From the NCBI RefSeq assembly GCF_001514065.1, contig NZ_KQ948425.1:748519-812518 (forward strand): a stretch of DNA of 64,000 bases, written 5' to 3'. Every line of letters begins with the position of its first letter. The stretch's first letter is position 1. The notes beneath the pieces were generated by a model, which was not told where the DNA came from, searched no databases, and saw only the letters and a list, made by a program, of their open reading frames with translations. This document shows, one piece after another, positions 12,570 through 25,811 of this stretch. The DNA comes from Streptomyces antibioticus. GTDB taxonomy: Bacteria; Actinomycetota; Actinomycetes; Streptomycetales; Streptomycetaceae. The translations under genes were made by a program, and so were the position numbers.

Positions 12570-12950
12570 AGTGCCTCCCTTGCGCTCGTTGACTGCGACG
12601 GACCGGCGCCGCCGGCCCGCCTCGATGCCCCCGGACCGTACGCATGCCACCGGCTCGCGAGGACCGACTCTCTGGGACTGACCGTGCGCGCCGGACAACG
12701 ACCGGACAACGACGCGAACGGACCGTTCGGTGGACCGGAACTGCCGTGACAGGCCGCGAAGTTGACTCCCGGGCGATGCGAGCGGGGTCGCCTCCTCGTA
12801 CCGGGAGGCCCTGTCGCCGTGGGGCCGATCGGCCCTGTGTGCCGCCCCCATGGGGCCCTGGAACGCCTCAGGGGTCGGCGGCGAGGGTGGTGTGCCGCGG
12901 TGCCCGTGGCCCCGTACTGCTGTGTTCCACCCCCTTTCCCCGGAGGCTTC
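12570..12950. other. Divergent regulatory region, roadblock gene / flavohemoglobin
   Basis: 381 bp without a gene. It contains the DevR-type palindrome at 12822-12835 and a separate inverted repeat CGAACGG-A-CCGTTCG at 12715-12729, nearer to the roadblock gene. It is GC-rich, with several smaller repeats of GGCCC type. The flavohemoglobin ribosome site CGGAGG ends 6 nt before 12951. Confidence 0.5.
12822..12835. promoter_or_regulatory. DevR/OsdR-type box upstream of flavohemoglobin gene
   Basis: Perfect 14-bp palindrome GGGCCGATCGGCCC, centred about 122 bp before the flavohemoglobin start. It matches the box repeated through 12.8-23.2 kb. Assignment to the island's DevR regulator is inference from distribution and from the GGGxC...GxCCC shape of mycobacterial DosR boxes. 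Confidence 0.65.
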
Positions 12951-14135
12951 ATGCTGTCCGCAGAGTCCGCCGCCGTCGTCCGGGCCACGCTGCCCGCCGT
13001 GGCCGGAGCCCTCGACGAGATCACCACGCGCTTCTACGGCGCGATGTTCCGCGACCGCCCTGAACTGCTGGACGGCTTGTTCAACCGGGGCAACCAGGCC
13101 AGCGGCGCCCAGCGCCGGGCCCTGGCCGGGGCGATAGCGGGCTTCGCGAGCGCGCTCCTCGCCGACCCCGACGCCCGCCCGGACGCGCTGCTGGCGCGGA
13201 TCGCCCACAAGCACACCGCGGTCGGGGTCACCGAGGACCAGTACACGGTCGTCCACAAGTACCTGTTCGGTGCCATCGCCGAGGTGCTCGGCGACGCGGT
13301 CACCCCGGAGGTGGCCGCCGCCTGGGACGAGGTGTACTGGCTGATGGCCGGCGCGCTCATCGCCCAGGAGGCCCGTATCTATCGGGAGGCGGGTGTCGTG
13401 CCGGGTGAGGTGTGGCGGCCGTGGACGGTCGTCGAGCGGCACGAGGAGACCGCCGACGTCGTCTCCTTCGTCCTGCGTCCGGCCGACGGCGGTCCGGCCC
13501 CCGCGGCGAAGGCCGGACAGTACGTCAGCGTCCGGGCCCTGATGCCGGACGGCGTCCACCAGTTGCGCCAGTACAGCCTGTCCGGCGACCCGGGCGGCCA
13601 GCTGCGCCGCATCACCGTCAAGCGGGTCGGCGGCGGGGAGGTGTCCACCCTCCTGCACGGCACGGTGCGGGCCGGGGACGAACTCACCCTGTCCGCGCCT
13701 TTCGGTGACGTCGTCCTCGACGAGACGGACACGCCGCTCGTCCTGGTCTCCGCCGGCATCGGCTGCACCCCCATCGTCGGCATGCTCGCCCGCCTCGCCG
13801 CCACCGACTCCACCCGACGGGTTCTCACCCTCCACGCCGATGTCTCCCCCGGCACCCACGCCCTGCGCACCGAGACCCGCGCGCTCACCGCACAACTGCC
13901 CGACGCCGAGGCCGTGTTCTGGTACGAGCGGTTCGGCATCGCCGAACCCGGCGCCCGCGAGGGCCTGATGGACCTCGCCGGGATCGACGTGCCGGCGGAC
14001 GCCACCGTCTACCTGTGCGGCCCGCTGCCGTTCATGCGCGCCGTCCGCACCCAACTGCTCGACCTCGGCATCCCGCCACGGCACATCCACTACGAGGTGT
14101 TCGGCCCCGACCTGTGGCTCCCGGACGCGTCCTGA
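12951..14135 (+). CDS. hmp: Flavohemoglobin (nitric oxide dioxygenase)
   Basis: 394 residues, full length. The globin domain (1-140) has a distal Tyr in TTRFYGAMF, Gln in NRGNQAS and a proximal His88 in IAHKHTAVG. The ferredoxin-reductase part has the FAD motif RQYSLSG (about 205) and the NAD-binding motif SAGIGCTPIVGML, ending in YEVFGPDLW as usual for Hmp. It oxidises NO to nitrate using O2 and NAD(P)H. ATG 12951 follows CGGAGG. A DevR-type box lies upstream, which suits an NO/hypoxia-responsive regulon. The gene is probably monocistronic, with a hairpin at 14368-14406 further on. Confidence 0.95.
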   Translation: MLSAESAAVVRATLPAVAGALDEITTRFYGAMFRDRPELLDGLFNRGNQASGAQRRALAGAIAGFASALLADPDARPDALLARIAHKHTAVGVTEDQYTVVHKYLFGAIAEVLGDAVTPEVAAAWDEVYWLMAGALIAQEARIYREAGVVPGEVWRPWTVVERHEETADVVSFVLRPADGGPAPAAKAGQYVSVRALMPDGVHQLRQYSLSGDPGGQLRRITVKRVGGGEVSTLLHGTVRAGDELTLSAPFGDVVLDETDTPLVLVSAGIGCTPIVGMLARLAATDSTRRVLTLHADVSPGTHALRTETRALTAQLPDAEAVFWYERFGIAEPGAREGLMDLAGIDVPADATVYLCGPLPFMRAVRTQLLDLGIPPRHIHYEVFGPDLWLPDAS

Positions 14136-14156
14136 CGCGGTACCACCGCGCGCCCG

Positions 14157-14192
14157 AGGGCCGTTCGGCCCTGCGCGGGGGCCCGATGGCCC
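14157..14192. promoter_or_regulatory. Pair of DevR/OsdR-type boxes, 21 bp centre to centre
   Basis: The first box, 14157-14172, is AGGGCCGTTCGGCCCT. The second, 14179-14192, is degenerate (GGGCCCGATGGCCC, 10 of 12 fixed positions). The centres are 21 bp apart, two helical turns, the arrangement expected for cooperative binding of NarL/DosR-type dimers. Confidence 0.6.
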
Positions 14193-14367
14193 GGTTCCGG
14201 ACGGCCGCGTGCTCCGGAGGATGGTGAAAGCGCAACCGACGCGTCTGTGGTCGCACTTGGACCAGCCTCGTCCCCGCGTCCCGCTCCGGCCGCACGCTCG
14301 CTCGTGCGCCGCGCCACGGGGACGATCCATGCGAGGCCGTGCGGTGGGGGCCGTACCGCCTCGCCCG

Positions 14368-14406
14368 GGCGGCCGCCGCCGGACCGGACAGCCGACGGCG
14401 GCCGCC
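14368..14406 (+). terminator. Strong hairpin between hmp and PAS-SpoIIE genes
   Basis: Arms GGCGGCCGCCG (14368-14378) and CGGCGGCCGCC (14396-14406) give an 11-bp stem with a 17-nt loop. It could end transcripts from hmp or act in the leader of the next gene. Confidence 0.4.
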
Positions 14407-14597
14407 GAGTGCCGCACCCGCCGTACAGCCGGAGAGCCGCGACCGTTGACCGTTGTACCGTCGCGAGACGGCCACGAGTCGCATATGCGGCGGACAGGTT
14501 CCGCCGGGGTGCGGACAGTAAGTGACATACCGTCTCGACTCCCGTCCGGGTGCGGTGAGATGACCCGAACCGGCACCGGCAGCGGTTGGGGAGAGAC

Positions 14598-16544
14598 ATG
14601 GGTCTGATTCCAGTACCGGACGTGGCGGACGGCACCGAGCGGACGCAGTGCGCCTGCGGCGGAGCGGCGCGTCCGATCGAGCCAGGGGCCGACGAAGACC
14701 GGTTCCGGGGTCTTCTGGAAGCCGCCCCGGACGCCATGGTCATCGTCGACAACGGCGGCATCATCAAACTCGTCAATGCCCAGACCGAGGCCCTGTTCGG
14801 CTACCGCCGCGAGGAACTCCTCGGCCATCCGGTGGAGTTGCTGATCCCGCACCGCTTCCGCCCGCACCACACCCGGCATCGCGGGGGCTACGCCGCCAAC
14901 CGCCAGGTCCGGCCCATGGGCGCCGGCCTCGATCTGCACGGACTGCGCAAGGACGGCACCGAGTTCCCCGTCGAGATCAGCCTGTCCCCGCTGGAGACCG
15001 CGGACGGGCTCCTGGTCTCCGCGGCGGTCCGCGACGTCAGCGACCGCCGAGCCGCCGAGGCCCGGATCAACGAGCTCGCCGCGCTCGTGGAGTCGTCCCA
15101 GGACGCGATCCTCGCCAAGACCCTCGACGGCTACATCACCTACTGGAACGCCGCCGCGCAGAGCCTGTACGGCTACACCGCCCAGGAGGCCATCGGCCGG
15201 CACGTGTCCGTGCTGGCCCCGCGGGAGAAGCGGGGCGAGGTCACCGCCCTCCTCAAGCGGCTGTGCCACGGGGAGAAGGTCGAGCACTTCGAGACGCTGC
15301 GCCTGACCCGCTCCGGCGAACTGCTGGACGTCGACGTCACGTTGTGGCCCACCCGGGACACGGCGGGCACGGTCGTCGGCGCCTGCGCCATCGTCCGGGA
15401 CATCAGCGACCGCAAGCGCGCCGAGGCCGAACTCACCGTCCTCTACGAGCAGCAGCGGCACATCGCGCTCACCCTGCAACGCAGCCTGATGGGCACCCCG
15501 TCCGCGGTCCCCGGTCTGGCCATGGCCAGCCGGTACCGGCCCGCCACGCAGGGCGCGGGCGTGGGCGGCGACTGGTTCGACCTGATCCCGCTGGGCGCCG
15601 GCCGGGTCGGGGTCCTCATCGGTGACGTGATGGGCCGCGGGCTCGAAGCCGCCGCGGTGATGGGGCAGTTGCGCTCCGCCGCGCATGCCCTGGCCAAGAC
15701 CGGCATGCAGCCCCGACAGCTGATGCAGGCCCTGGACACCTGTGTCGCCGACCTGGACGTCCCCGACCAGTTGGTCACCTGCTGCTATCTGATCGTCGCC
15801 CCGGACAGCGGAACCGTCACCGTCTGCTCGGCCGGTCATCTGCCGGTACTGGTGGCTCCCCCGAGTGGCCAGGTCCACGGCCTGAAGACCCCGGTGAACG
15901 CGCCGCTCGGCGTCGGCGACATCCTCTACGAGCAGTCCTGCGCCGACATTCCGCCCGGCGCCACACTGGTCCTCTACACCGACGGCCTGATCGAGACGCC
16001 CGGCAGCGACATCGAGGAGCGCCTCGGTCAACTCACCTCCGTCCTCGACGGGTTCTTCATCGACGCCCCCCGTCTGGAGACCGCCGCGGACCACGTCCTG
16101 ACCAGTCTGCTGCCCGACGCCGACAGTCATGACGACGACGTGACCCTGCTGCTGGCCCAGCTGCCGGCGGCGCCGCTGGCGGCGCTCACCACCGATCTGC
16201 CGGCGCTGCCGTCCTCGGTCCCGGAGGGGCGCACGTTCCTCAACAAGGCGCTCATGGCCTGGGAGTGCCCCGAACCGGCGGAGGAGGCCCGGCTGCTGCT
16301 CTCCGAGATCCTCACCAACGCGGTCCAGCACGCCGAGGGCCCGATCACGCTGCACCTGTGCCGGACGGTCACGGACCTCACGGTCGAGGTGAGCGACCGC
16401 AGTCCGCACCTGCCCCAGCCGCGGATCGCGGCGGAGGACGAGGAGTCCGGCCGCGGTCTGCTGCTGGTGCGGGCCCTGGCCGACGGGTGGGGGGTACGGC
16501 CCACCGACGAGGGCAAGACCACGTGGTTCACGCTGAAGCTGTGA
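14598..16544 (+). CDS. PAS-PAS-SpoIIE phosphatase-HATPase regulator
   Basis: 648 residues. Two PAS domains (about 30-150 and 160-285) have the linking motifs FGYRREELLG and YGYTAQEAIGRHVS. A PP2C/SpoIIE phosphatase domain (about 310-520) follows, with GGDWFDLI, LIGDVMGRGLEAA, LYTDGLIE and DDDVTLL. The C-terminus (about 540-645) is an anti-sigma-type HATPase with LLLSEILTNAVQHAEGP. Such proteins dephosphorylate or phosphorylate STAS anti-sigma antagonists in response to a PAS-sensed signal. A STAS protein is encoded at 21655. ATG 14598 follows GGGGAGAG; an in-frame TTG lies 12 nt earlier. The last 12 nt are part of a 29-bp duplication that continues past the stop. Confidence 0.9.
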   Translation: MGLIPVPDVADGTERTQCACGGAARPIEPGADEDRFRGLLEAAPDAMVIVDNGGIIKLVNAQTEALFGYRREELLGHPVELLIPHRFRPHHTRHRGGYAANRQVRPMGAGLDLHGLRKDGTEFPVEISLSPLETADGLLVSAAVRDVSDRRAAEARINELAALVESSQDAILAKTLDGYITYWNAAAQSLYGYTAQEAIGRHVSVLAPREKRGEVTALLKRLCHGEKVEHFETLRLTRSGELLDVDVTLWPTRDTAGTVVGACAIVRDISDRKRAEAELTVLYEQQRHIALTLQRSLMGTPSAVPGLAMASRYRPATQGAGVGGDWFDLIPLGAGRVGVLIGDVMGRGLEAAAVMGQLRSAAHALAKTGMQPRQLMQALDTCVADLDVPDQLVTCCYLIVAPDSGTVTVCSAGHLPVLVAPPSGQVHGLKTPVNAPLGVGDILYEQSCADIPPGATLVLYTDGLIETPGSDIEERLGQLTSVLDGFFIDAPRLETAADHVLTSLLPDADSHDDDVTLLLAQLPAAPLAALTTDLPALPSSVPEGRTFLNKALMAWECPEPAEEARLLLSEILTNAVQHAEGPITLHLCRTVTDLTVEVSDRSPHLPQPRIAAEDEESGRGLLLVRALADGWGVRPTDEGKTTWFTLKL

Positions 16545-16592
16545 GGCACGGCGCGGCCGCGTACTGAAGCTGTGAGGCACGGCGCGGCCGCG
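16533..16592. repeat. Perfect 29-bp direct repeat across a stop codon
   Basis: The 29 bases at 16533-16561, which include the last codons and TGA of the PAS-SpoIIE gene, recur exactly at 16564-16592 (period 31). The second copy is non-coding and lies in the 71-bp gap between two convergent genes. It looks like a recent local duplication. Confidence 0.9.
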
Positions 16593-16615
16593 AGGTCTCC
16601 TCCGCGGTGCGCGCG

Positions 16616-19155
<2,540 letters not shown>

Positions 19156-19236
19156 CGAACGCTCCTCGTCCCGTGTGCCGTGCCGGTGCCCGCTCGTGGG
19201 TCGCATCGGCCTCTCCTGGAGATCCTTCTCGCTCCC

Positions 19237-19326
19237 GGGCCGAAAGACCAGGGCCGTTCGGCCCCCTTTCGCCCCGGCCGTGCCCCCGAGGGGCCGGACG
19301 GACGACGGGCAGGGCCGAACGGCCCT
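19237..19326. promoter_or_regulatory. Cluster of DevR/OsdR-type boxes between devR and PPOX genes
   Basis: Two strong boxes, GGGCCGTTCGGCCC at 19251-19264 and AGGGCCGAACGGCCCT at 19311-19326, lie between divergent genes. A weaker copy at 19291-19304 is centred exactly 21 bp from the second. A poorer half-match abuts the first at 19237-19250. The layout suggests control of both devRS and the PPOX gene. Confidence 0.7.
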
Positions 19327-19416
19327 AGTCCTCCCCCGCCACCCGGCGTTCCATCGATCTGTCCCCCACCCTTCGGCAGAACGCACCATCGGCGCCGCAG
19401 CTCACGGAAGACCTTC

Positions 19417-19833
19417 ATGACCATCAAGAGGGAACTGGACAGTTCCGAAGCCCTGAGACTGCTCGGCGGGGTGTCGCTGGGCCGGGTCGTCTTCACCCGT
19501 CACGCGCTGCCGCAGATCCGCCCGGTCAATCACGTGATGGACGGCGGCGACATCGTCATCCGCACCCACGAGGGCGCGGCCCTCACCTCGCACACCGGCC
19601 CTGCGGACGGCCCGGGCGTGGTGGTCGCCTACGAGGCCGACCTCATCGACCCCGACACCCATCTCGGCTGGAGCGTCGTCGTCACCGGCTACGCCCATCT
19701 GGTGACGGATCCGCAGGAGCTGGCCCGCTACCGGGCGATGCTGCGGCCCTGGGTGGAGCAGACCATGGACTACGCGGTCCGTATCCGCCCCGATCTGGTG
19801 ACCGGAATCCTGCTCACCGCGGCGGACACCTGA
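19417..19833 (+). CDS. Pyridoxamine 5'-phosphate oxidase-fold flavoprotein
   Basis: 138 residues with a single split-barrel PPOX domain: LGRVVFTRHALPQIRPVNHVMDGGDIVIRT, then VVVAYEADLIDPDTHLGWSVVVTGYAHLVTD, then a short C-terminal helix. Small proteins of this type in DosR/OsdR regulons bind flavin or F420 and reduce unknown substrates. ATG 19417 has GGAAG about 9 nt before it. Several DevR-type boxes lie within 170 bp upstream. It ends in a very strong bidirectional terminator shared with the DoxX gene. Confidence 0.88.
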   Translation: MTIKRELDSSEALRLLGGVSLGRVVFTRHALPQIRPVNHVMDGGDIVIRTHEGAALTSHTGPADGPGVVVAYEADLIDPDTHLGWSVVVTGYAHLVTDPQELARYRAMLRPWVEQTMDYAVRIRPDLVTGILLTAADT

Positions 19834-19834
19834 A

Positions 19835-19894
19835 CGCCCGCCCGCACAGGGGCCACGCCGCGTCCGTGCGGCGTGGCCCCTGTGCGGGCGGGCG
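19835..19894. terminator. Bidirectional terminator with 27-bp perfect stem
   Basis: Arms 19835-19861 and 19868-19894 are perfect reverse complements over 27 bp with a 6-nt loop. It fills the 67-bp gap between the convergent PPOX and DoxX genes and would stop transcription from both sides. Confidence 0.9.
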
Positions 19895-19900
19895 GGCCGT

Positions 19901-20527
19901 TCACATCAGCCAGCGGTTCCGGCTGACGAACGGCAGCCTCGCCCAGGCCCTGCCCAGCCCCCAGGTGGCGCCGGCGCCCGCGGCGGCGAGGGCGATCAGG
20001 ACGAGGGCGTAGACGACGTGGTAGTCGGTGAACGGGTTGGTCGACATGCTCGGCGATCCGTCGGACAGGTGCTTGGCCGGCGGCCACTCCGCGATCCACA
20101 TCAGCGCCATCATCGCCGTGCCGGCGACCGCGGCGAGGCGCAGCCCGATGCCCGCGATCAGCGCGAGGCCGATACCGAGGAGGCCGAGCATGAACAGCCA
20201 GTCCGCCCAGCCGGCCCCGGCCCAGTCGTGGAAAGTGGACTCCATGGGGCCTGCGGCGACCCCGCCGAGGAAGCCCTTGGTGGGAGAGCCGCCGTCGATC
20301 CAGCCCTTGCCGGACGGGGTGGCGTAGCCGAAGCCGAAGGTCTTGTCGAGGAACGCCCACAGGAAGACGAACCCGGTCAGGATGCGGAGCACGGCCAGGA
20401 CGTACGGGCTGGTCGCCGTCGCCGTCGTGACAGCGCTCGCCTCGGTCGAGGAGCTTGCCGTCCCGCTCCTGCGCAGGGACGGGAAGCGGAATCCCGGGTG
20501 ACGGTGCGGATGATCGTGAACGGCCAT
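19901..20527 (-). CDS. DoxX-family membrane protein
   Basis: 208 residues. After a histidine-rich cytoplasmic N-terminus (VHDHPHRHPGFRF) come about four membrane segments: YVLAVLRILTGFVFLWAFLDK, WLFMLGLLGIGLALIAGIGL, AAVAGTAMMALMWIAEW and VYALVLIALAAAGAGATWGL. The first carries the RxxxGxxF..DK pattern of DoxX/thiosulfate-quinone oxidoreductase proteins. The actual reaction is unknown. ATG 20527 is preferred because GGAAGGG sits about 9 nt upstream; the ATG at 20536 is too close to it. Degenerate DevR-type boxes lie upstream, suggesting membership of the regulon. Confidence 0.85.
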   Translation of the reverse strand: MAVHDHPHRHPGFRFPSLRRSGTASSSTEASAVTTATATSPYVLAVLRILTGFVFLWAFLDKTFGFGYATPSGKGWIDGGSPTKGFLGGVAAGPMESTFHDWAGAGWADWLFMLGLLGIGLALIAGIGLRLAAVAGTAMMALMWIAEWPPAKHLSDGSPSMSTNPFTDYHVVYALVLIALAAAGAGATWGLGRAWARLPFVSRNRWLM

Positions 20528-20615
20528 GGTGCTCATCCCTTCCAGGGGTGACGCTCGGGCACTCGACGACTGTCGTCGCACCCTCAATGTCCCGCTGCGC
20601 CGGCCGCAGGCGGAG

Positions 20616-20675
20616 GGGCTGCGGGGCCCGCGGCGGAGGGCCTAACGGCCTTGCCCGCAGGGCCCGTTCAGGCCC
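20616..20675. promoter_or_regulatory. Degenerate DevR/OsdR-type boxes upstream of DoxX gene
   Basis: Copies at 20616-20629 and 20638-20651 each match 10 of 12 fixed positions of the box and are 22 bp apart centre to centre. A related 16-bp near-palindrome GGGCCCGTTCAGGCCC at 20660-20675 overlaps the stop codon of the upstream HTH-PPOX gene. Weaker evidence than the perfect sites. Confidence 0.45.
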
Positions 20676-21405
20676 GTCGGGCAGACTCGTCGTCGAGGTC
20701 GCCGGGGATCTCGCGGATCTCCCGGCCGGTGATCTCGTCGGCGTCGACGCACACCCACAGCTCGCGCGGGCCGCCCGCCCAGGGTGCGCTGTACGCCCGT
20801 TCCGTCAGCCGGCGGACCGTGGCGGGCTCCTGCGCCTGCCTGGCCCGGCCACGGACGAGGACGCTCCAGCCCCGGCTCATGGCCTCGTCGATGTGATCGA
20901 CCTCGAAGGCGATCCGCCGGCCCAGGGCCTCGGCGGGAGCGGTGCCGGGCTTCGTCCGGAAGGCGATCATGCCGTCGACGACGGCGTAGTTGACGGGCAG
21001 GACCGTCGGCCCGTCGGCCGTGGTCACCGCGATCCGGCCCACCCCGTGCGTACCCAGCCGACGGCGGCACTCCGCGTCGCTCAGCGCGACCAGTTCGGCA
21101 TGCCGGTCAGCCGGCTCCCGGCCCGGCGGGGCCTCGGTCTCGCCGCCGGTGAGGGCGGTGACTCCGGTCTCCAGCGCGGCGGCGAGCCGTAGCAGGGCGC
21201 TTCTGCCCGGGACCGCGGCGGAGGACTCCTCCAGGTACCGGAGGTAGGAGCAGGACATGCCCGCCCGGTCCGCCGTGTCGGTCCGGGTCAGCCCGAGTTC
21301 CGTGCGACGCCGTACGAGGCGTCGGCCCAGGTCGCCTCCGGGGTGTCCGGTGCGAGCCGTCGTACCGGATGATGCCGTCGTACCGGATGATGTCGTGTCG
21401 GCCAC
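20668..21405 (-). CDS. HTH-PPOX fusion regulator/flavoprotein
   Basis: 245 residues from GTG 21405, with AGGAGG 9 nt upstream. A duplicated SSGTTA stretch opens the protein. An XRE-type helix-turn-helix (about 25-85) reads GRRLVRRRTELGLTRTDTADRAGMSCSYLRYLEE, and a PPOX split barrel (about 105-235) reads GVGRIAVTTADGPTVLPVNYAVVDGMIAFRT and SRGWSVLVRGRARQ. The fusion suggests a flavin- or redox-responsive DNA-binding protein, which is inference. DevR-type boxes lie at 21524-21619 between it and the divergent STAS gene. Confidence 0.85.
   Translation of the reverse strand: MADTTSSGTTASSGTTARTGHPGGDLGRRLVRRRTELGLTRTDTADRAGMSCSYLRYLEESSAAVPGRSALLRLAAALETGVTALTGGETEAPPGREPADRHAELVALSDAECRRRLGTHGVGRIAVTTADGPTVLPVNYAVVDGMIAFRTKPGTAPAEALGRRIAFEVDHIDEAMSRGWSVLVRGRARQAQEPATVRRLTERAYSAPWAGGPRELWVCVDADEITGREIREIPGDLDDESARRA
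21356..21391. repeat. 18-bp tandem repeat encoding duplicated SSGTTA
   Basis: Two perfect 18-bp copies (21356-21373 and 21374-21391) near the start of the HTH-PPOX gene. They keep the frame and add six residues per unit, so unit number could vary between strains. Confidence 0.85.
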
Positions 21406-21523
21406 GACCCCTCACCTCCTGCCGGTGCCGGGCCGCCGGACGGCCCGGGGCGGACCGGACCTTGCCGCCGGCCCCCTCGCGTCCTCGTGATTCAGCATCG
21501 CCCCCGGTGGCCGGTGCACGCTT

Positions 21524-21537
21524 GGGCCGGTCGGCCC
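21524..21537. promoter_or_regulatory. DevR/OsdR-type box
   Basis: GGGCCGGTCGGCCC matches all 12 fixed positions. It lies 119 bp upstream of the HTH-PPOX start and between this gene and the divergent STAS gene. Confidence 0.6.
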
Positions 21538-21603
21538 CCTTTGCCCGGTTCCGGCGCCCGCCGCGGCGAGCCGCACGCCAGGGCCCCGGCCAGCCTCCCG
21601 AAC

Positions 21604-21619
21604 AGGGCCGATCGGCCCT
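21604..21619. promoter_or_regulatory. DevR/OsdR-type box upstream of STAS gene
   Basis: AGGGCCGATCGGCCCT is a perfect 16-bp palindrome centred about 43 bp before the STAS start at 21655. This is a position suited to activation at the -35 region. Confidence 0.65.
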
Positions 21620-21654
21620 TCCACCGGCCCGGGCCGACGGGGTTGGCTCGGACC

Positions 21655-22047
21655 ATGTTCAAGGACCACGAGGAGTCCATGCCCTGCCACACGGAGCGTC
21701 TCGCCGGCGGCACGACCGTGGTGGAACTGCGTGGTGAGATCGACCTGTGCACGGGGCCGCCGCTCTCGGCCCGCCTCGACGCCCTGACCGCCGGGCCCTT
21801 CCCCGACCTGGTGCTGGACCTGCGCCCGGTGTCCTTCGTCGACTGCAGCGGACTGCGCGCCCTGTGCCGGGCGCGCAACCGGGTCCTCGCCCGCGGCGGA
21901 CGGTTCCGCCTGGTCACCGAGAGCCCCCGGCTGCTGGGGATTCTGCGGTGTGTGGATCTGGGCGACGCTTTCGAGGTGCTGTCCCGGCTGCCCGAGGGGG
22001 TCGTCTCCGCACCCCGCCCGGGGATCGTCCCTGTCGCCGTCGGCTAA
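21655..22047 (+). CDS. STAS-domain anti-sigma factor antagonist
   Basis: 130 residues forming one STAS domain: TTVVELRGEIDLCTGPPLSARLDAL, then LVLDLRPVSFVDCSGLRALCRARNRV, with the phosphorylatable Ser in VDCSGL. Such proteins are released by SpoIIE-type phosphatases and bind anti-sigma kinases; two phosphatases with HATPase domains flank it within 8 kb. ATG 21655 is used; an in-frame ATG at 21679 follows GAGGAG and is an alternative. A perfect DevR-type box lies just upstream. Its stop overlaps the stop of the convergent nitroreductase gene by 3 bp. Confidence 0.87.
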   Translation: MFKDHEESMPCHTERLAGGTTVVELRGEIDLCTGPPLSARLDALTAGPFPDLVLDLRPVSFVDCSGLRALCRARNRVLARGGRFRLVTESPRLLGILRCVDLGDAFEVLSRLPEGVVSAPRPGIVPVAVG

Positions 22048-23045
22048 CTGGGCGGCGCCTGTGTGTCGAGCACGGCGTGCGGGTCGTAGCGGGGTGTGAG
22101 GGGGCCCTCGATGCCGTAGCCGAGGCGGATCAGCATCTGGGCATGTCCGCTGTGAGCGGGGTCCGGGCTCAGGGTGCGTCGCAGGTCGGGCCACTCCATC
22201 GGCTGGTGCAGCAGTGACGCGCGCAGCCCGTGGACGGTGGCGACGAGCAGGGCGTGTTCGAGTGCCTGCCCGGCGCGCAGCCAGTCGGTGCGGCGGTCGT
22301 GGCCCGTCGTGAGGAGCCCGACGACCGGTTCCGTCTCGAAGGGCTGGGCGGGGAGCCGCTCGGTGTGCCGCTGCGCGGTGAAGTCGCGCAGGGGGATGCG
22401 CTCCCCGGAGTCCTGCGGGCCGAGCACGGACCACGGCAGGCCGGTCCGCGCCGGCGAGTCCGGGTCCTGGTGCACCCAACGGCGGCTCTCGGCGCCGCGC
22501 GCGCCGTCCGCACGGTTGCGGAGTTCGGCTTCCCTCACGACCCGGAGCAGACGGGCGGTCTCGTCGACGGCAGGGAAGCCGAGCGAAGCGCCTTCGGTCC
22601 GGGCGGCGTCGGCGAGTTCGGCGAGGACGTGACGCGGCAAGGGGCGACCGGAGAAAGGGAAACGGCTGCTGTGCCGGCGCCAGACGGCCGGGTAGAGGTC
22701 GTCGCGGTGGCCGGTGGCGTGCCCGCTGCGGCAGCCGTCCAGACGGACGGTGGCGAGCAGGCCGGGGTCGTCCGGGCGGGGCAGCAGCCGGACGAACGGC
22801 GACCAGCCGAAGTGGGCGGCCGCCACACGGAGGTTGAAGACGGACGCCCCCACCGACAGATGCAGGGCGCGGCCCACCGGGTCGGTGTGACGCAGGCTCC
22901 GCTCCGCCGCGGCCCGCACCTCGAACGCCGGGATCTCGGCGTCCAGCCGGAACCGCCACGGCTGGGTGTTGTGGATCGACGGCGCGGCCACGGCCGCGGC
23001 GAGGCAGGCTTCCAGAGTCGTGGCGTCGAGAGGCGTCGATCGCAT
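22044..23045 (-). CDS. Acg-like nitroreductase-family protein
   Basis: 333 residues from ATG 23045, with AAGGAGG 6 nt upstream. The N-terminus LEACLAAAVAAPSIHNTQPWRFRLD and the C-terminal ALLVATVHGLRASLLHQPMEWPDLR and PQMLIRLGYG-like segments follow the nitroreductase fold in the divergent form seen in mycobacterial Acg (Rv2032), a strongly DosR-induced flavoprotein proposed to sequester FMN. No reaction has been assigned to that group. A pair of DevR-type boxes lies about 100 bp upstream, matching that regulation. Its stop shares bases with the STAS gene stop. Confidence 0.85.
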   Translation of the reverse strand: MRSTPLDATTLEACLAAAVAAPSIHNTQPWRFRLDAEIPAFEVRAAAERSLRHTDPVGRALHLSVGASVFNLRVAAAHFGWSPFVRLLPRPDDPGLLATVRLDGCRSGHATGHRDDLYPAVWRRHSSRFPFSGRPLPRHVLAELADAARTEGASLGFPAVDETARLLRVVREAELRNRADGARGAESRRWVHQDPDSPARTGLPWSVLGPQDSGERIPLRDFTAQRHTERLPAQPFETEPVVGLLTTGHDRRTDWLRAGQALEHALLVATVHGLRASLLHQPMEWPDLRRTLSPDPAHSGHAQMLIRLGYGIEGPLTPRYDPHAVLDTQAPPS

Positions 23046-23137
23046 GGTGACCTCCTTGCGCACACTCTTCCGCACGGACGTAGGCACAGAAGCGGCGCGG
23101 TCCTTCGAGCGTGCCCCTGCCGCCGGGCGAGGGGACG

Positions 23138-23172
23138 GGGCCGTTGGTCCCTCGTCGGCGGCCGCTCGGCGA
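23138..23172. promoter_or_regulatory. Pair of DevR/OsdR-type boxes between nitroreductase and methyltransferase genes
   Basis: GGGCCGTTGGTCCC (23138-23151, 10 of 12 positions) and a second copy at 23159-23172 (9 of 12) have centres exactly 21 bp apart. They are about 100 bp from each of the two divergent starts. Confidence 0.5.
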
Positions 23173-23275: not shown

Positions 23276-23959
23276 GTGAGCAGCCCCGCCGACGAGTCCG
23301 GCTACGGGAACATCCAGCTCGACCGCACGGGTCAGGCCGCGGCCTTCGACGCCCTCGGCGACCGCTACGACGAGGCCTTCCCGCACAAGGAGGGTCAGGT
23401 CGCGGCCGCGGAGTGGCTGATCCGGTCGCTGCCCACCGGGTCCCGCGCCCTTGATCTGGGGTGCGGCACGGGCATTCCGACCGCCCTCCAGCTGGCGGAG
23501 GCAGGCTTCGAGGTCGTCGGTGTCGATCTGTCGGACGGGATGGTGGCGCTGGCGCGCAAGAACGTGCCCGGCGGGCGGTTCCATCAGGCGGACATCGCCG
23601 ATCTGCGGCCGGGCGGCCCGCTGGACCTCGGTCGCTTCGAGGCGGTGGCGGCCTTCTTCTCGCTGCTCATGCTGCCGCGCGCGGAGATCCCGCTGGCCCT
23701 GCGGACCGTCCACCACCTGCTGGTGCCGGGCGGCCTGTTCGCGCTGTCGATGGTGGAGGCCGACGTGGACGACTTCTCCATCCCGTTCGTCGGGGAGAGC
23801 ATCCGGGTCTCCGGCTACCTCAGGGAGGAGCTGCGCGAGGTGGTCGAAGGGGCGGGCTTCGAGATCGTCGACGAGTCGTCGTTCACGTACGCCCCGGCCT
23901 CCGCGGACGTACCGCCCGAGGTGCAGATCTTCCTGCGCTGCCGACGGCGGCACGCCTGA
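23276..23959 (+). CDS. Class I SAM-dependent methyltransferase
   Basis: 227 residues from GTG 23276, with AAGGAG about 8 nt upstream. The Rossmann motif I is ALDLGCGTGIPTAL (about 58-71), followed by GFEVVGVDLSDGMVALAR (acidic end of strand 2) and a motif IV region FEAVAAFFSLLMLP. The substrate is unknown. The gene is followed after 52 bp by the GAF-SpoIIE gene on the same strand, so the two are probably co-transcribed. The start is preceded by a short AT-rich stretch, likely the promoter. Confidence 0.85.
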   Translation: MSSPADESGYGNIQLDRTGQAAAFDALGDRYDEAFPHKEGQVAAAEWLIRSLPTGSRALDLGCGTGIPTALQLAEAGFEVVGVDLSDGMVALARKNVPGGRFHQADIADLRPGGPLDLGRFEAVAAFFSLLMLPRAEIPLALRTVHHLLVPGGLFALSMVEADVDDFSIPFVGESIRVSGYLREELREVVEGAGFEIVDESSFTYAPASADVPPEVQIFLRCRRRHA

Positions 23960-24011
23960 CGACTCCTGTTCCGGCAGCCCCGGCACGGGCCGCCCGGCGG
24001 GAAGGACACCC

Positions 24012-25811
24012 ATGACGAAGCGCCTCGGGAGCGGCAAACGCACCGGCGGCAAGGCGGCCGGGGCGCGCGGGCGTGCCGCTGCCTCCCGTCGGCCGACGCG
24101 CTCCGCCCCGCCGCCCGTCTCCGGCGACCGTGCGGACGAGGACCTGACCGAGGCGCAGACGGACCGGCTGCGGTATCTCGACGCCGCGACCCGCAGCATC
24201 GCCCGCGGCATGGACCTCGACGAGACGCTGTCCGAGCTGTGCCGGGCGGCCGTCCCGGCCTTCGCCGACACGGCGCTCGTTCATCTGTACGACCCGCTGC
24301 CGGTGGGCGACGAGACCGGCCCCGTCCCCGGCGTCCTGCGGCTGCTCACCACCGGGCAGACGTCCTCACAAGCCCTGGCGTCCGCGGCCGAGGCCGTCCA
24401 TCCCGCCGTGGGTGGACCGCTGGCGACACGGCTGCGGGACGGCCGGCCGATCTTCGGCGACGCCCCGAACGCGGCCGCCACGGTGACCGAACTGCTGGGC
24501 GCGGCGCACGCGCCCGGGGCGCTGCCGCCCGGCCGGCGCCTAATCCTCGCCCCCCTGCACGGCCGCAGCCACGTCCTCGGCAGCGTCACCCTCCTGCGCG
24601 GTGCCGGCCGCCCCGGCTTCACCGACGACGATCTGCTGGTCGCCTCCCAGCTCGCCACCCACACCGCGCTCGGCATCGACAAGGCGATGCTGTACGCCCG
24701 CGAGGCGTCCGTCGCCGACGCGCTCCAGCGCACCATGCTCCCGCCGTCGCTGCCCGCACCGCCCGGCGTCCGTCTGGCCAGCCGCTATCTGCCGGCCTCG
24801 CGGACCGCGCAGGTGGGCGGCGACTGGTACGACACGATCCCGCTGCCCGGCAACCGGGTCGCGCTGGTCATCGGCGACGTGATGGGCCACTCCATGACGT
24901 CGGCCGCGATCATGGGCCAGCTGCGGACCACCGTGCAGACCCTGGCCCTGCTCGACCTGCCTCCCGACGAGGTGCTGCACCACCTGGACGAGCAGGCGGA
25001 ACGACTGGGCACCGAGCACACCGCGACCTGTCTGTACGCCCTCTACGACCCGGTCCTGCAGCGGCTGCTGGTCTCCAACGCCGGCCACCTGCCACCGGTG
25101 CTGCTGCATCCCGACGGGCACGGGGAGATCCTGTCGGTCCCGCCCGGGGCGCCGATCGGTGTGGGCGGCGGCGGTTTCGAGTCCACCGAGATCCACGCGC
25201 CGGCCGGGGCGACCCTGCTGCTCTACACCGACGGCCTGGTCGAGTCCCGCGACTCCGACGTGCTGACCGGCATCGAGAACCTGCGTTCCCGGCTCCAGTC
25301 GGCCGCCGCCCGGGACACCTCCCCCGCCCTGGAGACCCTGTGCGACGCTGCGCTCGGCACCCTGGGCGGCGGCGACCGTGACGACGACGTCGCCCTGCTC
25401 GCCGCCCACTTCGAAGGCCTGCTCCCGGAGACCGTCGCCTACTGGTACCTGGCCCCGCGCCCGCAGACCGCCGGCCAGGCCCGCCGGCTGACCCGCAGGA
25501 CGCTGGGCCGCTGGGGGCTCGACTCCCTGATCGAGTCCACCGAGCTCATGGTCAGCGAGGTGGTGGCCAACGCCGTACGGTTCGCCTCGCGCCCGATCAC
25601 CCTGCGCCTGCTCCGCACGGACGTGCTCCGCTGCGAGGTCGGGGACGACTCCCCGATGGTGCCGAGGATGCGGCACGCCCGGTTGAGCGACGAGGGCGGC
25701 CGGGGGCTGTTCCTGGTCGACCAGTTGTCGCAGCGCTGGGGGGCGACGCGGCTGAGCACCGGCAAGGTCGTCTGGTTCGAGCAGCACCTCCCCGACGCCG
25801 CCCCTCGGTGA
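24012..25811 (+). CDS. GAF-SpoIIE phosphatase-HATPase regulator
   Basis: 599 residues. A basic N-terminus (KRLGSGKRTGGKAAGARGR) is followed by a GAF domain (about 55-235), then the PP2C/SpoIIE domain (about 255-465) with GGDWYDTI, VIGDVMGHSMTSAA, LYTDGLVESRD and DDDVALLA. A C-terminal HATPase (about 480-595) has LMVSEVVANAVRFASRP and DEGGRGLFLVDQLSQRWG. It is a second potential regulator of STAS proteins in the island, here with GAF instead of PAS input. ATG 24012 follows GGGAAGGA. It converges on the YCII gene. Confidence 0.9.
   Translation: MTKRLGSGKRTGGKAAGARGRAAASRRPTRSAPPPVSGDRADEDLTEAQTDRLRYLDAATRSIARGMDLDETLSELCRAAVPAFADTALVHLYDPLPVGDETGPVPGVLRLLTTGQTSSQALASAAEAVHPAVGGPLATRLRDGRPIFGDAPNAAATVTELLGAAHAPGALPPGRRLILAPLHGRSHVLGSVTLLRGAGRPGFTDDDLLVASQLATHTALGIDKAMLYAREASVADALQRTMLPPSLPAPPGVRLASRYLPASRTAQVGGDWYDTIPLPGNRVALVIGDVMGHSMTSAAIMGQLRTTVQTLALLDLPPDEVLHHLDEQAERLGTEHTATCLYALYDPVLQRLLVSNAGHLPPVLLHPDGHGEILSVPPGAPIGVGGGGFESTEIHAPAGATLLLYTDGLVESRDSDVLTGIENLRSRLQSAAARDTSPALETLCDAALGTLGGGDRDDDVALLAAHFEGLLPETVAYWYLAPRPQTAGQARRLTRRTLGRWGLDSLIESTELMVSEVVANAVRFASRPITLRLLRTDVLRCEVGDDSPMVPRMRHARLSDEGGRGLFLVDQLSQRWGATRLSTGKVVWFEQHLPDAAPR

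Follow-up and report, generated by a model that had tools for sequence, protein, structure and literature searches.

A probable DevS-DevR (OsdK-OsdR) regulon island in Streptomyces antibioticus with a flavohemoglobin gene behind a DevR/OsdR-type box

The window considered here is the whole stretch of 64,000 nucleotides of Streptomyces antibioticus DNA that was analysed (C4:748519-812518 of a 10.15-Mb genome; positions without a contig label are counted from its first letter). It encodes a two-component pair of the DevS-DevR type, known as OsdK-OsdR in S. coelicolor, together with a flavohemoglobin, PPOX-fold proteins, an Acg-family oxidoreductase and a STAS protein, and the palindrome GGGCCG-NN-CGGCCC, hereafter the box, recurs between these genes. 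Judged from the sequence, the region is very probably the right half of a DevS-DevR core regulon island in Streptomyces, a system of a known kind.

The regulator matches its best solved relative, DevR of Mycobacterium tuberculosis (3c3w), with E 4e-79, and keeps Asp54, Thr82, Lys104 and the K179-T-V-K182-N183 recognition helix of that protein. In the DevS encoded beside devR, the first GAF domain aligns with the heme GAF of DosT/DevS, and the histidine of HHPPM and the tyrosine of NLYLT are kept. These aligned residues we take to be the equivalents of His149 and Tyr171, with their role at the heme.

The perfect palindrome GGGCCGNNCGGCCC is present six times in the window, as the preliminary description had it, where 0.17 copies are expected, and none of 100 shuffles reaches six; three of the coordinates given there (14157, 19311 and 21604) were each one base low. 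A 46-kb segment starting about 25 kb left of the window (C4:723797-770136) holds 11 of the 26 perfect sites of the genome (binomial P ~1e-19), six of them in the window and outside genes, the five others left of it and, by reading, between start codons. A scoring matrix derived from the boxes that precede devR in other species (72 in all) picks out 11 sites of 12 bits or more in 52 kb, versus a rate of 1.25 per 100 kb over 400 kb of control sequence of this genome. The boxes form two groups about 20 kb apart, one at C4:723.8-740.7 kb and the other at window positions 12822-23138. The left group, 8-25 kb from the window, adjoins usp, alcohol dehydrogenase, SulP transporter, CBS-BON and PPOX genes.

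Table. Genes and candidate DevR/OsdR boxes in the window (scores in bits)
Feature	Position	Strand	Basis
DevR/OsdR box, perfect; 115 bp upstream of flavohemoglobin; weak partner at 12798 (24 bp)	12822..12835		
Flavohemoglobin, clade I; globin, FAD and NAD domains	12951..14135	+	Pfam, tree
DevR/OsdR box, perfect; next start codon more than 400 bp off	14158..14171		
Weaker DevR/OsdR box; 21 bp from 14158	14179..14192		score 6.6
PAS-PAS-SpoIIE phosphatase-HATPase protein; possible target of 14158/14179, membership doubtful	14598..16544	+	Pfam
DevS/OsdK-type histidine kinase; two GAF, HisKA_3, HATPase	16616..18442	-	Pfam; matches DosT/DevS GAF structures
DevR/OsdR response regulator, NarL family	18460..19155	-	Pfam; best solved match M. 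tuberculosis DevR 3c3w
DevR/OsdR box, perfect; 95 bp upstream of devR	19251..19264		
DevR/OsdR box, perfect; 91 bp upstream of divergent PPOX gene, 61 bp from 19251	19312..19325		
PPOX-fold (Pyridox_ox_2) protein	19417..19833	+	Pfam
Membrane-type protein (nature read from sequence), weak DoxX resemblance	19901..20527	-	Pfam E 0.006, below cut-off
Weaker DevR/OsdR box; 110 bp upstream of membrane-type protein; weak partner at 20661	20638..20651		score 8.6
Helix-turn-helix (HTH) plus PPOX protein	20668..21405	-	Pfam
DevR/OsdR box, perfect; between HTH-PPOX and STAS genes	21524..21537		
DevR/OsdR box, perfect; highest score of the region, 26.4; 36 bp upstream of STAS	21605..21618		
STAS anti-anti-sigma-factor-type protein; start codon by reading	21655..22047	+	Pfam; TIGR00377 over cut-off
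Acg/Rv3131-family oxidoreductase binding flavin mononucleotide (FMN)	22044..23045	-	NF047509 301.8 vs cut-off 199
DevR/OsdR box, two mismatches; 92 bp upstream of Acg-family gene	23138..23151		score 13.1

Nine boxes were retained (Table). All of them lie outside genes, and seven of the nine are 36-117 bp from a start codon. Among the six weaker boxes of the preliminary description, those at 14179, 20638 and 23138 stand, whereas those at 19291 (-5.2), 20616 (-8.9) and 23159 (-11.9) score as background; of its four pairs, only 14158/14179 survives, the other three resting on background-level boxes. Its naming of the neighbouring genes was right for the flavohemoglobin, the HTH-PPOX protein, DevS, DevR, the STAS protein, the PPOX protein and the Acg-family enzyme; DoxX reaches 17.6 bits against a Pfam cut-off of 23.6.

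The 14158 box and its partner sit directly past the flavohemoglobin stop codon, in the gap 14136-14597, where the one reading frame examined gave no Pfam match. These boxes may belong to a lost gene, a long leader or a small RNA. The PAS-SpoIIE gene that follows was tried as their target and set aside, its membership being doubtful, as none of four homologues in relatives has a good box. Two SpoIIE-type phosphatases and the STAS protein lie in or beside the island (14598-16544, 23451-25811 and 21655-22047, respectively). The box upstream of the STAS gene, conserved in five of five homologues in relatives, hints at a link between DevR and sigma-factor partner switching.

Conservation was followed in the devR loci of relatives, the best 80 of at least 573, to which some genomes contribute two; 67 of these 80 named loci belong to Streptomyces. 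The palindrome occurs there 147 times, and 14 other arrangements of the half-site letters at most 24 times each. A good box, defined as a site with no more than one mismatch in the upstream 300 bp and found in about 8% of random windows, precedes 64 of 78 DevR, 14 of 16 flavohemoglobin, five of five STAS and 16 of 24 PPOX homologues, as well as the homologues of two usp genes (16/25 and 11/15); up to three matches per locus at 45% identity or more were counted, so that paralogues may be included. A methyltransferase query had no homologue among these loci.

The same 80 loci reveal a rule of spacing between boxes. From 303 strong sites, thinned by shared 8-mers to 223 non-redundant anchors, partners of at least 0 bits were counted at each distance. 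At 20, 21, 22 and 23 bp there are 10, 18, 17 and 11 partners, respectively, roughly ten times the expectation (1.33 per distance at 46-130 bp), with two in all at 15-19 bp and one at 24-28 bp. Permuted motifs display no such peak (0.52 per distance at 20-23 bp versus 0.66 at 46-130 bp). The 20-23 bp peak is thus firmly established and confirms, as a general rule, the pairing at 21-22 bp proposed earlier. A smaller bump at 31-34 bp (8, 4, 4 and 3 partners) is noted tentatively. Two further pairs whose second box is weak (0.1 to 7.4 bits) are found in the window, 12798/12822 at 24 bp and 20638/20661 at 23 bp; left of the window, such pairs are spaced at 20 bp (three), 21 bp (one) or 22 bp (two). 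In many relatives (L034-L113), the devR promoter carries an abutting second box-like element exactly 14 bp on. A 14-bp spacing (13 cases in the thinned set) was rejected as a second rule, as it mostly represents this one orthologous element. Strict 10.5-bp periodicity past the first peak was also discarded: distances of 25-60 bp cluster (Rayleigh P 4e-4 at 10.5 bp, for partners of at least 0 bits), although a better fit comes from periods of 11 and 12.

Cooperative binding of DevR to a primary site and an adjacent weaker one has been reported in M. tuberculosis (PMC3029386), and the 20-23 bp spacing fits that arrangement. In S. coelicolor, the two sites tabulated at SCO0517 (-248 and -268) are 20 bp apart (PMC5069765). 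No statement of a 20-23 bp spacing for Streptomyces was found in the available text of PMC5069765, PMC4766573, PMC3029386, PMC4432287, PMC10552308 and PMC12919924, and the word "spacing" is absent from that of PMC5069765.

A mechanism can be proposed from these features. DevS, as a heme-GAF histidine kinase, would sense oxygen or nitric oxide (NO) and phosphorylate DevR, phosphorylated DevR dimers would bind GGGCCG-NN-CGGCCC, and a usually weaker box 20-23 bp away, two helical turns on and on the same face, would allow a second dimer to join cooperatively. Genes with a start codon about 40-150 bp away would be switched on, namely devRS and those of the PPOX flavoproteins, the Acg-type FMN oxidoreductase, the STAS protein, the membrane-type protein and usp. 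With the flavohemoglobin in the regulon, NO removal would fall under DevR. We infer binding, activation and cooperativity at the island boxes, as well as the signal, which by analogy would be hypoxia or NO. The preliminary description had already proposed a DevR/OsdR regulon, and the published consensus, the functional residues of DevR and DevS and the boxes upstream of homologous genes in relatives lend it good support. Its "self-contained" nature finds no support, as a second group of boxes lies left of the window and the predicted S. coelicolor regulon exceeds the island.

Several observations weigh against this assignment. The genome scan, which asked whether the palindrome is equally common elsewhere, found extreme clustering at the island but no overall excess, with 26 perfect sites against 35 for the reversed control. 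The 14158 and 14179 boxes have no gene start within 400 bp. In relatives, a good box is mostly absent upstream of the Acg (1/12), HTH-PPOX (4/12), membrane-type protein (6/13), CBS (5/16), alcohol dehydrogenase (5/11) and PAS-SpoIIE homologues. It also precedes only 9 of 45 DevS homologues, a low count to be expected if devS is transcribed from the devR promoter. As to the signal, NO is reported to have reduced the autophosphorylation of DevS in S. coelicolor, whereas in the work quoted by Urem et al. (PMC5069765) low oxygen and nitroprusside induce the region; the sign of the NO effect on DevS-DevR is mixed across published accounts and disputed.

What counts as evidence is where the sites lie, how they cluster and whether they are conserved, and nothing else. 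The abundance of the palindrome in whole genomes was rejected for this purpose, the 14-mer being rarer than its reversed control in most of 121 genomes of the genus; the 16-mer AGGGCCGNNCGGCCCT has a slight excess over its control at best, judged by eye and unsummed (4 versus 1 in this genome). Surroundings were viewed for 8 of the 15 perfect sites outside the island, and seven of these overlap a reading frame filtered by GC at third codon positions (GC3), the site in L023 being the other. That the palindrome is a by-product of a 72% GC composition, lying near stress genes by coincidence, is scarcely credible: the genome-wide count of GGGCCGNNCGGCCC, no higher than that of its reversed version, and the reading frames over those seven sites speak for it and it may well hold for many sites outside the island, but for the island it is already refuted by the 11 of 26 sites in 46 kb, those in the window outside genes, by the rarity of other letter arrangements in the devR loci of relatives (6-fold or more) and by the permuted motifs without a 20-23 bp peak.

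The genome also encodes a DevR paralogue (C5:459148-459786; L114:9131-9808), 67% identical and with a similar DNA-binding helix. It adjoins a gene that narrowly misses the PPOX cut-off and, by reading, dehydrogenase-complex genes, and we take it to be perhaps the counterpart of SCO3818. OsdK is reported to partner SCO3818 (PMC5069765), which, with the similar helix, lends some colour to the idea that a different NarL-type regulator, for instance this paralogue, binds the boxes, alone or together with DevR. We regard this as very unlikely. The 20 kb around the paralogue contain no perfect box and two one-mismatch sites, 3-5 kb from it, whereas the boxes cluster at devR and recur upstream of most of its copies in relatives; binding by OsdR itself has been published for S. 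coelicolor (PMC5069765).

The flavohemoglobin gene adds a regulatory aspect to the DevS-DevR island. Flavohemoglobin matches exist in 87 of the 121 genomes of the genus, and a tree of 44 of the proteins splits, with 100/100 support, into clade I (35, the window gene included) and clade II (9). Of the 35 clade I genes, 31 have a box scoring 6 bits or more in the upstream 300 bp, as against none of the nine in clade II (P 1e-6). Conversely, an AT-rich 11-1-11 palindrome of the NsrR type is found in all nine clade II promoters and in none of 21 from clade I; this pattern was written from the nine clade II promoters, so that its fit there is circular, while its absence from clade I and from this genome is not.

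Linkage was assessed for all 21 clade I genes and 43 of 85 other flavohemoglobin places, with DevR places picked by hand from among the matches listed. Among the 21 clade I genes, 16 share a contig with a DevR of about 70% identity or more, and 15 of these 16 are no more than 110 kb away from it, versus 3 of 31 in clade II (of 43 typed). The two clade I genes that lack any box (L121 and L133) belong to genomes in which no such DevR shares their contig. A box is present at other unlinked clade I genes, those of G016, G021, G103 and G098; G016, whose draft assembly runs to 1140 contigs, yields no DevR match at E <= 1e-60. Very strong boxes occur further upstream of some clade I genes (L128 at -840 and -781, L136 at -965, L131 at -318) and probably belong to devR or other neighbours.

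The S. antibioticus genome has a single flavohemoglobin match, which is of clade I and DevR-boxed. A scan of this genome for NsrR-type sites found none that convinces, with one match at two mismatches and also one for the control. Its Rrf2-family matches number 11, of which six exceed the cut-off and three are strong, none being identified as NsrR nor excluded. In S. coelicolor, hmpA is reported to be under NsrR (PMC4432287) and narG2 under DevR; the HmpA1 and HmpA2 proteins of that species would be predicted to fall into clade II. Set against an NsrR-type sister clade, a single DevR-boxed flavohemoglobin suggests that NO detoxification has therefore moved from NsrR to DevR.

Nitrate reductase genes were compared in a set of 18 narG chosen from 66 places, of which 12 were labelled "nar2-type", a label of our own based on the start of the alignment to the narG model and on the neighbourhood. 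All 12 carry a box of at least 4 bits, and nine of them one of at least 11 bits (two, L180 and L181, have the same site); the six others, including that of this genome, have none. As the only narG over the family cut-off in this genome (C7:61568) is unboxed, narG was rejected as a member of the island here. Both a nar2-type narG and a clade I flavohemoglobin are boxed in eight genomes (G006, G012, G021, G098, G101, G107, G114 and G115).

These patterns argue, with somewhat better than even confidence, for a rewiring in a sub-lineage of Streptomyces, in which NO detoxification would have passed from NsrR derepression to DevS-DevR activation and the flavohemoglobin clade would travel with the devR island. 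In the eight relatives, the nar2-type source of NO and nitrite and its sink are both boxed, so that a single gas sensor would close the nitrogen-oxide cycle, of which only the sink would be left here. The flavohemoglobin box could instead be a repressor site or serve another transcript, the flavohemoglobin gene (fhb) not being activated by DevR. This is rather unlikely, even though inhibition of DevS by NO, as one account has it, would make activation by DevR unexpected for an enzyme that removes NO. In 19 of 21 clade I loci, the start of a box scoring 5 bits or more and the start codon are 120-185 bp apart, with the box ahead of the gene and not far from the positions at several published OsdR targets (-81, -99, -100 and -102, in a table that spans +36 to -391; PMC5069765).

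DevR activation of fhb, as predicted from the boxes, would be a case of regulatory variation that is testable; no earlier description was found, and among the titles and opening lines of abstracts listed for flavohemoglobin with DosR, DevR or OsdR, none reports DevR control of a flavohemoglobin. Judging by the sites, one enzyme family would be governed by a repressor destroyed by NO (NsrR) in one clade and by an oxygen/NO kinase (DevS) in the other. The island extends the published Streptomyces dormancy regulon to another species, and the 20-23 bp spacing offers a simple promoter rule by which genuine DevR targets can be separated from palindromes that arise by chance where GC content is high.

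Among known systems, NsrR-hmpA of S. coelicolor likewise controls a flavohemoglobin for NO removal, through a 23-bp 11-1-11 palindrome with AA/TT ends as in the clade II promoters (PMC4432287), whereas the flavohemoglobin of this genome has a DevR box and no NsrR-type site. The M. tuberculosis DevR/DosR-DevS/DosT regulon shares the regulator and sensor residues, an Acg/Rv3131-type oxidoreductase and usp genes with the island, but its gene content differs, as the flavohemoglobin and STAS genes are included here. The window box is GC-rich (GGGCCG) and has the GGGxC core in common with the M. tuberculosis DevR site, which reads GGGACT. A primary box with a weaker adjacent one is also shared, acting cooperatively in that species (PMC3029386). 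The closest system is OsdK-OsdR (SCO0203-SCO0204) of S. coelicolor, with the same two-component pair and the same consensus, AGGGCCGATCGGCCCT, a 16-bp palindrome that was deduced from 12 osdR promoters of Streptomyces and put to the test in gel shifts (Urem et al. 2016, PMC5069765). Its regulon has target types in common with the island (usp, alcohol dehydrogenase, nitroreductase and PPOX), and its island is also in two parts, SCO0167-0181 and SCO0198-0219 (PMC5069765). Table 1 of the same account (PMC5069765) includes narG2 and leaves out a flavohemoglobin, whereas here the flavohemoglobin is boxed and narG is not; the nar2 operon is an accessory target and does not define the DevR/OsdR regulon.

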